Positions 9,538 through 17,709 of a stretch of DNA of 17,840 nt are shown here, piece by piece. The stretch covers positions 1-17,840 of the forward strand of contig JAOAGA010000030.1 of assembly GCA_026415985.1 (NCBI GenBank), read 5' to 3'. The position numbers and the translations under genes were made by a program. Under the pieces are notes generated by a model, which was not told the origin of the DNA, did no database searches, and worked only from the letters and a program-made list of their open reading frames with translations. The first letter of the stretch is position 1; each line of letters opens with the position of its first letter. This stretch comes from Pseudomonadota bacterium. GTDB lineage: Bacteria; CALINM01.

Positions 9538-9565
9538 TAGACTGCTAAAGTTATTTAGATATAAT
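9538..9565 (+). promoter_or_regulatory. Promoter of yacG, leaderless geometry
   Basis: TAGACT (9538-9543) and a perfect TATAAT (9560-9565) are 16 nt apart. Seven nucleotides follow before the ATG at 9573, putting transcription start at about 9572. There is no Shine-Dalgarno sequence. Confidence 0.5.
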
Positions 9566-9572
9566 AATTATT

Positions 9573-9761
9573 ATGGCCTTTGAAAGAAAAAGAAGATGTC
9601 CTATTTGTAATACAGAGCTCCATTTTAGTATTAAGGATTCACCTTATGGTCCTTTTTGTTCGGAAAGGTGCAAAAAGATAGATTTACTGAACTGGATTGA
9701 GGAAAAATACAGGATTGAGAGAGAGATTAAAGAAGAAGATCTGGAAGAATCTAAATCCTGA
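9573..9761 (+). CDS. yacG: YacG-family zinc-finger protein (DNA gyrase inhibitor homologue)
   Basis: This 62-residue protein has CPIC (9-12) and then CSERC (29-33), the four zinc ligands of the YacG/DUF329 family. The typical RCKKIDLLNWIEEKYRI segment and an acidic tail follow. In E. coli YacG binds GyrB and inhibits DNA gyrase; whether this holds here is an inference from homology. The gene stands alone, divergent from the MFS gene. Its last 11 bp overlap the 3' end of cysS on the other strand. It appears to lack a Shine-Dalgarno sequence and to be translated from a leaderless transcript. Confidence 0.85.
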   Translation: MAFERKRRCPICNTELHFSIKDSPYGPFCSERCKKIDLLNWIEEKYRIEREIKEEDLEESKS

Positions 9762-14318: not shown

Positions 14319-15613
14319 GGCATCCTGAAGCTGACAAACTTATTTCCCTGCTTTGTTCTTAACTGAATAGTTACCGCTGAGTTTTTAGGGATTAATGTTA
14401 CAATCTCAACTAACTGGTCTATGGTTTCAACCTTTTGGTTATTTACACTAATAATTATGTCACCGGGAACAATTTTTAAAGAGCTGGCGATGGAGTGGGG
14501 TTGAACTTCTTCTACAACAATCCCGCTTTTTGATTCTGATAACCTGAGTCCTAATTTTTCAAGCACTGTTCCCTGTTCTGACTGTTTACCTAACGTGGCT
14601 GAAAGAATAACTTCCTTTTTTTCTCTATAAATCTTTAGTTTTACTGTATCCCCCGGCAAATAACTGGCAATAATTTTAGGAAAAGAAGTAAACTCATCTA
14701 CGGTCTTACCGTTAACATCAAGGATGATATCCCCTTCCTTAATACCAGCCTTCTCTGCGGGACTGTTTTTTACGACCTCTGAGACGAGAACCCCGACTGT
14801 TTTATCAAACCCAAAGCTTTCTGCTATCTCTTTTGTAACTTCCTGAAACTTAATTCCAAGATAGGCTCTCTCTACTATACCCTTTTTTAGCTGAGGCAGA
14901 ATTGTTTTTACCATATTAATAGGTATGGAAAAACCTATATTCTGACCACCAGCGATAATTGCTGTGTTAATACCCACTATCTCTCCGTTTAGGTTAAAAA
15001 GAGGTCCTCCAGAGTTACCAAAATTAATTGGTGTATCCGTTTGAATAAAATCATCATAGGGACCGGAACCAATGACTCTCCCTTTGGCACTAACTATTCC
15101 TTTTGTGACAGTATGAGATAGTCCGAAAGGATTCCCTATAGCAATTACCCAGTCTCCTACTTCCAACTTATCTGAGTCTCCCAACCTTGCAAAGGGAAGA
15201 TTATCTCTGTTAATTTTTAACAAAGCGATATCAATTTTAGGATCCTTTCCGACAACCACTGCTTCTATATCTTCCTTAGATCTGTAAAGTCTTACCTTTA
15301 TTATGCTTGCATCCTTTATTACATGATGATTGGTAAGTATATAACCATCTTCGGAAATAATAACCCCGGACCCCAGACTTTGCCTCTGAAAGTCTTTCGG
15401 CATATCAAAATCAAAGGGAGATTCCCCGAAAAACTCTTTAAAGAAATCAAAGGGAGTTGGTCTTTGTGCTTTAATAATCTGAGTGGTACTTATATTCACA
15501 ACTGTAGGCTCAACCTTTTTTACCAATTGAGAAAAACTCTTAAGTTCCTCACTGTAAAGGGGTTTAATAAGCAATACTGCCAGAAAAAACAAAACCATCA
15601 GGTGTCTTCTCAT
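14315..15613 (-). CDS. htrA: Periplasmic serine protease/chaperone, HtrA (DegP/DegQ) family
   Basis: A 432-residue protein with a signal peptide (about 1-21), a trypsin-like protease domain (about 75-245) and two PDZ domains (about 250-340 and 350-430). The catalytic triad is His97 (LTNHHV), Asp128 (DIALLKI) and Ser201 (GNSGGPL). The activation-loop segment reads QTDTPINFGNSGGPL, close to the usual QTDAAINPGNSGGPL. Such proteases degrade or refold damaged envelope proteins. AGGAGC lies upstream of the ATG at 15613. The gene is divergent from the SOS operon across 122 bp and precedes hsp20, so the pair looks like an envelope and cytoplasm protein-stress unit. Confidence 0.96.
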   Translation of the reverse strand: MRRHLMVLFFLAVLLIKPLYSEELKSFSQLVKKVEPTVVNISTTQIIKAQRPTPFDFFKEFFGESPFDFDMPKDFQRQSLGSGVIISEDGYILTNHHVIKDASIIKVRLYRSKEDIEAVVVGKDPKIDIALLKINRDNLPFARLGDSDKLEVGDWVIAIGNPFGLSHTVTKGIVSAKGRVIGSGPYDDFIQTDTPINFGNSGGPLFNLNGEIVGINTAIIAGGQNIGFSIPINMVKTILPQLKKGIVERAYLGIKFQEVTKEIAESFGFDKTVGVLVSEVVKNSPAEKAGIKEGDIILDVNGKTVDEFTSFPKIIASYLPGDTVKLKIYREKKEVILSATLGKQSEQGTVLEKLGLRLSESKSGIVVEEVQPHSIASSLKIVPGDIIISVNNQKVETIDQLVEIVTLIPKNSAVTIQLRTKQGNKFVSFRMP

Positions 15614-15650
15614 CTTTTAGCTCCTCCAACAAACAAAAACTAACTTACTT

Positions 15651-15679
15651 AATATTAACAGAAATAAAAAAAAAGTCAA
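15651..15679 (-). promoter_or_regulatory. Possible promoter of htrA-hsp20
   Basis: On the minus strand TTGACT (15679-15674) is 17 nt from AATATT (15656-15651). The spacer is mostly a T-run. The -35 box is good and the -10 box is weak, so a stress sigma factor or activator could be involved. No CIRCE-type inverted repeat is seen. Confidence 0.3.
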
Positions 15680-15699
15680 AAACCGGATATATTATAAGG

Positions 15700-15728
15700 T
15701 TGACAACTGAACAAGTGTTCAGTATAAT
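15700..15728 (+). promoter_or_regulatory. Consensus promoter of the SOS operon
   Basis: TTGACA (15700-15705) and TATAAT (15723-15728) are both perfect and separated by exactly 17 nt. The predicted start of transcription is about 15735, one base before the ATG at 15736. An unrepressed promoter of this strength would be very active, which fits strict repression by LexA through the palindrome in its spacer. Confidence 0.88.
15706..15723. promoter_or_regulatory. LexA operator (SOS box), GAAC-N4-GTTC type
   Basis: ACTGAACAAGTGTTCAGT is a perfect inverted repeat of 8-bp arms around AG. It contains GAAC-AAGT-GTTC, the core of the LexA box first known from Bacillus (GAAC-N4-GTTC), and not the CTGT-N8-ACAG box of gamma-proteobacteria. 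It fills the whole promoter spacer plus the first base of the -10 box. Because dinB and lexA lie directly downstream, LexA is the obvious ligand. Confidence 0.88.
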
Positions 15729-15735
15729 TTAAACA

Positions 15736-15969
15736 ATGGCTGATAGTTTTGATTTTATAAAAGTAGCAACTATATTTAAGAAAGGAATGATTTTTCCCAT
15801 CTGGTTTGAACGGAAGGGACAAAAATACCCTATAGATAAGATACTCTACAGATGGGAAGAAAGAAAGGGAAGGTCGCAAATACTATATTTTTCAGTAGTA
15901 TCCGGTGAGGAAAACTACAACATAGCCTTTGATAGTGAAAATTTTATCTGGCATATAATAGAAGGATAA
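15736..15969 (+). CDS. Small SOS-operon protein of unknown function (possibly DUF6504-like)
   Basis: A 77-residue protein encoded first in the LexA-controlled operon. It has no signal peptide or membrane segment. The middle contains IFPIWFERKGQKYPIDKIL and YRWEERKGRSQILYFSV, alternating aromatic and charged residues typical of a small beta-rich fold. This recalls the short DUF6504-like proteins found next to DinB or ImuA/DnaE2 genes, but I cannot confirm membership. The ATG at 15736 begins 7 nt after TATAAT and has no ribosome site, so translation would be leaderless. A start at Met18 (15787) would have AAAGGA directly against it and seems less likely. The dinB gene follows after 5 bp; its AAGGA site lies over this gene's stop codon. 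Function unknown. Confidence 0.75.
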   Translation: MADSFDFIKVATIFKKGMIFPIWFERKGQKYPIDKILYRWEERKGRSQILYFSVVSGEENYNIAFDSENFIWHIIEG

Positions 15970-15974
15970 ATTTT

Positions 15975-17129
15975 ATGATCCTGCACATAGATATGGATGC
16001 CTTCTTTGCCTCCGTTGAACAGGCTTCTAATCCAAGGCTGAAAAACCAGCCTGTGGCGGTGGCAAGCTCTGAGAAAAGGGGAGTTATCATTACCTCTTCC
16101 TATGAAGCAAGAAAATATGGAGTAAAAACCGGTTTCACAATTTTTGAGGCCCAAAGAGTTTGTCCTCATATAAAGATAGTTCCTGCTAACTTTGAAAAAT
16201 ATGTTTCGACATCTAAAAAGATTATTGAAATTTTTAAAAAACAGGGAATTACTGAAGTTTTTTCCATAGATGAGGCGTTCATTGATATAGGAGATAAGAA
16301 CCCCCTTATAGTTTCCGATCAGATCAAGAAAGATATCAAAAAAAATTTCTCCATAACCTGTTCTGTCGGGGTAGGAGTTAATAAAGATATAGCTAAATTA
16401 GCCAGCGGAATAAATAAGCCCGATGGTTTTTATTGGGTGAAAAGCTTTGATCAGATTAAAGATATACCAATAAAGGAAGTATGCGGTATTGGAAAAAAGA
16501 TTTCCGGAAAATTAGCTTTAATCTCTGTCAAGACGATAAACGATTTTGTTAATATAAAGAATGAAGTTTTGCGCTCTATTATGGGTATCGGCGGTATAAG
16601 ATTAAAGATGGCTTTGCTTGGAGAACTATTTGAAAAAGTTAACCCCGAGAGTGTAATTCCAAAATCTGTCAGCAACAGTATGACACTGCCTCAAAATATA
16701 TGGAAGAAGGAAGATATTGACATAGCTCTTTTTCAGCTTAGCGAAAAGGTTGCCTATCGTTTAAGAAAACAAGGTTTAGGGGGTAAACGTATTGGTGTTT
16801 ATGTAAGATTTGGTGATTTTACAAGCATTAGCATTGATAGAAGATATTACGAATATACCAGTGACGAACAGGAAATATTTAAAAGAGCAAAAAATATTAT
16901 TAATAATTTAGCCTTAAACAAACCGATAAGATTGTTGGGAATATCTGTAACAGAGCTTTCTCCCGCCGTTCAGATTCAAATTTTTAATGAAAACAAAAAA
17001 GAGAGGATAGAAGCTATAGACCGTATAAGAGAAAGATGGGGATTTTCCGCCATCACGTGGGGAGTTCTTGCAAAGAGATTCAAGCATAAGCCACCAATAT
17101 CTCCCGCATGGAGGCCAGAGAAGCCATAA
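15975..17129 (+). CDS. dinB: DNA polymerase IV (Y family)
   Basis: The 384-residue error-prone translesion polymerase has HIDMDAFFASVEQ (4-16), with Asp6 and Asp8 as metal ligand and active-site residues and Phe11 as probable steric gate. SIDEAFIDI (97-105) carries Asp99 and Glu100. Palm/finger, thumb with helix-hairpin-helix segments (about 170-215) and little-finger domain are all present. The C-terminus ends SPAWRPEKP and shows no evident QLxLF sliding-clamp motif, which in many Pol IV proteins is terminal. It is the second gene of the SOS operon, with AAGGA 8 nt before the ATG. Confidence 0.96.
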   Translation: MILHIDMDAFFASVEQASNPRLKNQPVAVASSEKRGVIITSSYEARKYGVKTGFTIFEAQRVCPHIKIVPANFEKYVSTSKKIIEIFKKQGITEVFSIDEAFIDIGDKNPLIVSDQIKKDIKKNFSITCSVGVGVNKDIAKLASGINKPDGFYWVKSFDQIKDIPIKEVCGIGKKISGKLALISVKTINDFVNIKNEVLRSIMGIGGIRLKMALLGELFEKVNPESVIPKSVSNSMTLPQNIWKKEDIDIALFQLSEKVAYRLRKQGLGGKRIGVYVRFGDFTSISIDRRYYEYTSDEQEIFKRAKNIINNLALNKPIRLLGISVTELSPAVQIQIFNENKKERIEAIDRIRERWGFSAITWGVLAKRFKHKPPISPAWRPEKP

Positions 17130-17130
17130 T

Positions 17131-17709
17131 ATGCTTACAAAAAGAAGAAAGGAGATTCTTGATTTCATAATAAGTTTCAGAGACAGTACCGGTCAGATAC
17201 CAACCATAAGAGAGATCTGCAATCATTTTGGTTTTAGATCTACCAACGGAGTATATGAACACTTAAAGTCCCTTGAAAAAGACGGCTATCTTGAGTTGAA
17301 ACAAAAAAAATCAAGAGGTATCTGCATAAAAGATGAGAAACAAAACTTCTTGCCTCTTCTGGGAGTCGTTCCTGCCGGCTCTCCGTTGTATCCGATCATC
17401 GAGGAAGGAGAGCATGTCAACATGCCCTTGAAACATAAGGAGGGTTTTCTGTTGCGAGTTAAAGGAGACAGTATGATAAAGGCAGGGATTCAGGATGGCG
17501 ACATAGTCCTTGTGGAAGCAAACAAGGAAGTTACAAATAACAGCATAGTAGTAGCAATGATAGAAGAGGAAGTTACGCTTAAAAGACTATTTATCTATAA
17601 TGATTTTATCGAGCTTCGCCCTGAAAACGATAACTATAAGCCAATAAAAGTGAATAAAAGACAGATTAAAATACTTGGCAGAGTCACCACTTTAATAAGA
17701 AAGCTATAA
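17131..17709 (+). CDS. lexA: SOS repressor LexA
   Basis: A 192-residue repressor. The N-terminal winged helix-turn-helix spans about 1-65 (TKRRKEILDFI, PTIREICNHFGFRS, VYEHLKSLEKDGYL). The cleavage site is Ala82-Gly83 in VVPAGSP; the peptidase dyad is Ser114 (GDSM) and Lys151 (VTLKRL). RecA-ssDNA triggers self-cleavage and derepression of SOS genes. I place the start at ATG 17131, one base after the dinB stop, because the protein then begins in the usual way; the reading frame is open further upstream but with no good start. The linker between the domains is slightly short. As last gene behind its own operator, lexA is autoregulated. Confidence 0.97.
   Translation: MLTKRRKEILDFIISFRDSTGQIPTIREICNHFGFRSTNGVYEHLKSLEKDGYLELKQKKSRGICIKDEKQNFLPLLGVVPAGSPLYPIIEEGEHVNMPLKHKEGFLLRVKGDSMIKAGIQDGDIVLVEANKEVTNNSIVVAMIEEEVTLKRLFIYNDFIELRPENDNYKPIKVNKRQIKILGRVTTLIRKL

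Follow-up and report, generated by a model that had tools for sequence, protein, structure and literature searches.

The lexA operon and its promoter

The window, that is, the whole stretch of 17,840 nucleotides analyzed here, derives from a 1.57-Mb genome (G000; the assembly is 84% complete) and contains an operon of three genes coding for a small DUF6504-like protein, DNA polymerase IV and the LexA repressor, preceded by a compact promoter (Table 1). The LexA protein scores 180 bits against TIGR00498 (cut-off 111) and is also matched by PF01726 and PF00717; in the alignment, the Ala-Gly cleavage site (VPAGSP), the catalytic serine (KGDSM) and the catalytic lysine (VTLKR) are all present. The product of the first gene yields no Pfam match at E < 1 and stays under the cut-off of DUF6504 (PF20114). 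Because its aligned homologs score just below that cut-off (21.2-23.8 against 24.2), we refer to it as DUF6504-like only. Alignment of the N-termini supports Met1 as the start of this protein, whereas the alternative start at Met18 (position 15787) was ruled out, given that the homolog from G002, a genome of the same family, has no methionine there and that the alignment begins at Met1.

Table 1 Features of the promoter region and of the downstream operon in the window
Feature	Positions	Strand	Basis
-35 element TTGACA, perfect	15700-15705	+	direct read; promoter scan
Spacer ACTGAACAAGTGTTCAG, 17 nt	15706-15722	+	direct read
18-bp palindrome ACTGAACAAGTGTTCAGT, putative LexA operator	15706-15723	+	direct read; register kept in G002, box in G003
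GAAC-N4-GTTC core of the palindrome	15709-15720	+	direct read
-10 element TATAAT, perfect	15723-15728	+	direct read; promoter scan
Predicted transcription start, A15735 or A15736	15735-15736	+	inferred from the -10 to +1 distance
Start codon ATG of the first gene	15736-15738	+	direct read
DUF6504-like protein, 77 aa, first operon gene, no Shine-Dalgarno sequence	15736-15969	+	homolog alignment
dinB, DNA polymerase IV (Y family)	15975-17129	+	PF00817 (E 3.6e-46); PF11799
lexA repressor: HTH, Ala-Gly cleavage site, catalytic Ser (GDSM), catalytic Lys (TLK)	17131-17709	+	TIGR00498

The initial annotation had described a perfect TTGACA, a 17-bp spacer and a perfect TATAAT upstream of the first gene, with a palindrome that spans the entire spacer and reaches one base into the -10 element and with an ATG 7 nt farther downstream. 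On direct reading, all of these elements and their positions proved correct, and in the promoter scan the region 15700-15728 scores 12 out of 12 matches. The palindrome ACTGAACAAGTGTTCAGT consists of perfect 7-bp arms, ACTGAAC and GTTCAGT (outer bases counted), on either side of four bases, the central AAGT, which are not self-complementary, whereas TTAAACA separates TATAAT from the ATG. Since the DUF6504-like gene, dinB and lexA all lie downstream, the site is the promoter of the operon encoding LexA itself. An A-rich tract, AAAAAAAAAGTC, located upstream of the -35 element (window 15640-15699), could serve as an UP element, and a divergent htrA-like gene begins 93 nt from the box; the neighbor differs in G002.

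In the window, GAAC-N4-GTTC is present at this single site (0.12 expected), and its extended form, CTGAAC-N4-GTTCAG, occurs once in the genome. Perfect promoters of the form TTGACA-N16..18-TATAAT number eight in G000, compared with three for the reversed control, and, because such promoters precede a 16S rRNA gene and a tRNA-like gene (L117, L119), consensus promoters are evidently used in this genome. The palindrome is found in only one of the eight, namely that of the window.

Conservation and recurrence of the box

In G002, whose LexA is 52% identical to that of the window and whose DUF6504-like protein is about 35% identical, the same three genes are preceded by TTGCTA-ACTGAACATTTGTTCAG-TATAAT-TAAATT-ATG, with a different gene upstream. 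The register of the box, the -10 element and the gap of 6-7 nt to the ATG are kept between the two genomes, while most of the other sequence has changed; as in G000, CTGAAC-N4-GTTCAG has a sole exact copy in G002. In a third genome of the family (G001, 91% complete), recA is present, and lexA and the DUF6504-like gene were not seen. The LexA relatives retrieved by the contig search were too distant, and in none of them was the exact core found near lexA.

A different arrangement is encountered in the unrelated genome G003, where lexA, dinB and DUF6504 constitute separate transcription units. TGAAC-N4-GTTCA is found there four times, once before each of these three genes and once inside an open reading frame. 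For dinB and lexA of G003, the operator is located exactly within the 17-nt spacer. The dinB promoter (L193, C62:9383-9411) reads TTGACA-17-TATATT and harbors GAACATTTGTTC within its spacer; the ATG follows the -10 element either directly or after 9 nt. The presence of the box at each of three separate genes is, in our view, the strongest evidence for regarding the palindrome as a putative LexA operator, and the copy in the window is very probably the operator of the lexA operon itself. Were it instead bound by another dimeric repressor, for example, a TetR- or GntR-like protein, its absence from recA and other promoters of G000 would fit. Such a repressor would, however, have to account for the box preceding the lexA operon of G000 as well as that of G002, and at the separate lexA, dinB and DUF6504 units of G003, as well as for a core identical to the GAAC-N4-GTTC motif reported for Gram-positive LexA (PMC3323433), and we consider this explanation highly improbable.

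The box also recurs well outside these three genomes. Among 386 genomes searched with the spacer-core pattern TTG-N6-GAAC-N4-GTTC-NN-TA-N3-T, using the reversed pattern as a control, 23 places were recovered, compared with six for the control, and at least ten of the 23 precede lexA, dinB or DUF6504. A stricter pattern, which demanded the box, TATANT and an ATG at a gap of 5-9 nt, yielded ten matches against one for the control; half of the ten begin SOS genes: a DUF6504-like gene in G000 and in G002, dinB in G003, and lexA in both G236 and G202. The lexA gene of G286, in which 10 nt separate the -10 element from the ATG, adds a further case. The lexA genes of G236 (L217), G202 (L221) and G286 (L204), which have the box just upstream of the -10 element and the ATG 7-10 nt after the latter, are candidates for leaderless expression; the genome of G202 is 0.6 Mb in size. 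Pattern matches in G113, G377, G049, G259, G418 and G408 begin no recognizable SOS gene and are regarded here as chance or unexplained. In G294 (L203), two tandem GAAC-N4-GTTC-like boxes precede a gene for an S24-peptidase-like protein, the ATG of which lies a few nucleotides after a second -10-like stretch.

These results bear on the notion that a strong promoter merely happens to hold a palindrome in the window. The eight perfect consensus promoters of the genome offer some room for such a coincidence, but the exact box occurs once genome-wide and stands in the same register in G002, and the patterns exceed their reversed controls clearly in the 386 genomes, so that chance is barely credible. 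It also follows that this organism is not alone in having GAAC-N4-GTTC: boxes of this type precede lexA-type genes in several lineages, and the initial annotation's view of the motif as notable in this bacterium is not sustained. The same motif has been reported as that of LexA for Bacillus subtilis and Mycobacterium tuberculosis (PMC3323433), and LexA motifs vary widely between groups (PMC8565304). The recurrence further ties the uncharacterized DUF6504-like protein to the SOS response, with its gene boxed in several lineages and lying beside that of polymerase IV.

Probable leaderless start of the first cistron

No Shine-Dalgarno sequence was found upstream of the ATG at 15736, and the distance from the -10 element to the ATG (7 nt in the window and 6 nt in G002) falls in the range of 5-9 nt that we applied to starts devoid of a Shine-Dalgarno sequence. 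Start statistics were compiled over 413 kb of G000, comprising 20 fetched stretches (~395 kb) and the window. A -10 element at a gap of 5-9 nt was observed at 9 of 40 intergenic starts lacking a Shine-Dalgarno sequence and at none of the 48 starts possessing one (Fisher p 0.0005); when starts were not split in this way, the histogram of TATAAT-ATG distances displayed only a weak bump, and it was the split that gave a clear signal. The candidates in G000 include aroA-, fur- and xer-like genes (named by eye from their N-termini). In the window itself, the ATG of yacG (9560-9575, start at 9573) is preceded at 7 nt by TATAAT, with no Shine-Dalgarno sequence and no clear -35 element, making this gene a second leaderless candidate. 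Because -10 elements at this distance are seen at starts without a Shine-Dalgarno sequence and are absent from those with one, leaderless expression seems to be an ordinary, if minor, route in G000.

The lack of a Shine-Dalgarno sequence, the conserved gap of 6-7 nt and the existence of a real class of such starts in the genome together make a leaderless transcript likely for the DUF6504-like cistron. The initial annotation's proposal of a first codon coinciding with or adjoining +1 is thus supported in silico, the predicted start being at 15735 or 15736. The position of the operator does not by itself imply leaderlessness, and the two features are separable, because boxed promoters elsewhere have ordinary leaders: those of lexA in G003, G057, G053 and G326 are followed by leaders no shorter than ~22 nt, a clear Shine-Dalgarno sequence being present in some. 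By analogy, the LexA-controlled promoter of the window could be as described and still give rise to a short or longer leader, if transcription started several nucleotides upstream or from a second promoter. Against this, there is no Shine-Dalgarno sequence ahead of the ATG, the promoter scan found no second forward-strand promoter scoring in 15560-15700, the gap to the ATG is kept in G002, and G000 has a significant class of starts of this kind; we therefore hold a leader to be unlikely.

Collectively, the above observations allow us to propose, with good confidence, that the DUF6504-dinB-lexA operon is driven by an autoregulated SOS promoter at 15700-15735, with LexA bound in the spacer and a first cistron that is leaderless (0-1 nt). 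Given that the box is conserved at the lexA operon and recurs at lexA, dinB and DUF6504 elsewhere, LexA autorepression through promoter occlusion appears to be the best reading of the site. A LexA dimer on the palindrome would be positioned between the -35 and -10 hexamers, in line with the initial annotation, which had placed it between the two sigma contacts and is supported in silico on this point, and would block access of RNA polymerase to a promoter of consensus strength. Upon DNA damage, RecA-stimulated self-cleavage of LexA would free the promoter, RNA polymerase would start at A15735 or A15736, and the first cistron would be presented on a leaderless mRNA. The polymerase IV gene, which has its own Shine-Dalgarno sequence, would be translated next, and LexA, judging from the gene order, would be made last, restoring repression. 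If the leaderless start is true, SOS induction would bypass Shine-Dalgarno initiation for the first cistron.

Extent of the regulon and relation to known systems

The regulon was searched for with genome-wide patterns and in the 20 stretches, with uvrA, ssb and similar genes covered by the patterns. The recA gene of G000 carries no recognizable box (best match, 10 of 15 positions), and pattern searches of the 84% complete assembly recovered no other intergenic box; among the 42 near-matches examined, the window site is the only perfect intergenic one. An excess of boxes with two mismatches in G000 (40 versus 20 in the control) was set aside, nearly all of those examined lying inside reading frames. 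Diverged boxes elsewhere in the genome are possible. As recA is devoid of a box and no other intergenic one was found, the LexA regulon looks, within the available assembly, like a single operon combining translesion synthesis with its own repressor. The initial annotation had envisaged GAAC-N4-GTTC palindromes upstream of recA and other SOS genes and took their absence as evidence against the proposal. The searches of G000 indeed recovered none, so that no wider regulon corroborates the motif inside this genome; a box at recA and other SOS genes is, however, a common rather than a strictly defining trait of such operators. An autoregulated lexA operon is not thereby refuted, given that boxes of this kind are found before lexA, dinB and DUF6504 in other lineages. 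A reduced regulon is suggested, with LexA governing error-prone synthesis and not recA. We also entertain, as a tentative idea with somewhat less than an even chance of being right, that the locus exemplifies a minimal SOS unit recurring in distant lineages, in which lexA, dinB or a DUF6504-like gene is expressed leaderlessly from fewer than 40 bp of DNA with the box as the spacer, and which in G000 would make up the whole LexA regulon, directed at translesion synthesis rather than at recA.

The closest counterpart of the promoter layout is that of Escherichia coli recA, TTGATA-CTGTATGAGCATACAG-TATAAT, the spacer box of which is an established LexA operator. As in the window, the operator is located between the -35 and -10 elements and ends directly before TATAAT, and the dyad center is 8.5 bp upstream of the -10 element in both. 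The E. coli promoter differs in having a 16-nt spacer and a 16-bp CTGT-N8-ACAG box (17 nt and GAAC-N4-GTTC in the window), a leader of ~50 nt with a Shine-Dalgarno sequence, and recA rather than a lexA operon downstream. The outer CTG...CAG of the window box presumably echoes the E. coli box, with the core being that of Gram-positive bacteria. G003 shares the three genes and the box with the window, but in separate units rather than one operon, and its lexA has a leader of ~90 nt with a Shine-Dalgarno sequence, unlike what is predicted for the first cistron of the window.

The design is not new, as both an operator in the spacer (E. coli recA) and a leaderless lexA (M. tuberculosis) have precedents; taken singly, every element has been described before, and the window unites them in a compact, conserved form. 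The site is real, looks functional and is mechanistically familiar; moderate interest attaches to the putative one-operon regulon, to the connection with DUF6504 and to the repeated occurrence of candidate leaderless starts. It also provides a clean candidate LexA operator for a poorly sampled lineage with almost no sequenced relatives among the genomes compared. In M. tuberculosis, experiments have shown that translation of lexA begins at the transcription start (PMC2897130), which makes it a leaderless SOS gene with the same class of box; there, it is lexA itself that is leaderless, whereas in the window it would be the DUF6504-like gene, followed by dinB and lexA, and the two lineages are unrelated. 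In Deinococcus-Thermus, leaderless promoters are common, with the -10 element a few base pairs upstream of the open reading frame (PMC12340547), as in the window, which adds a perfect -35 element and a putative repressor site and belongs to a genome in which leaderless starts account for a minority of genes.
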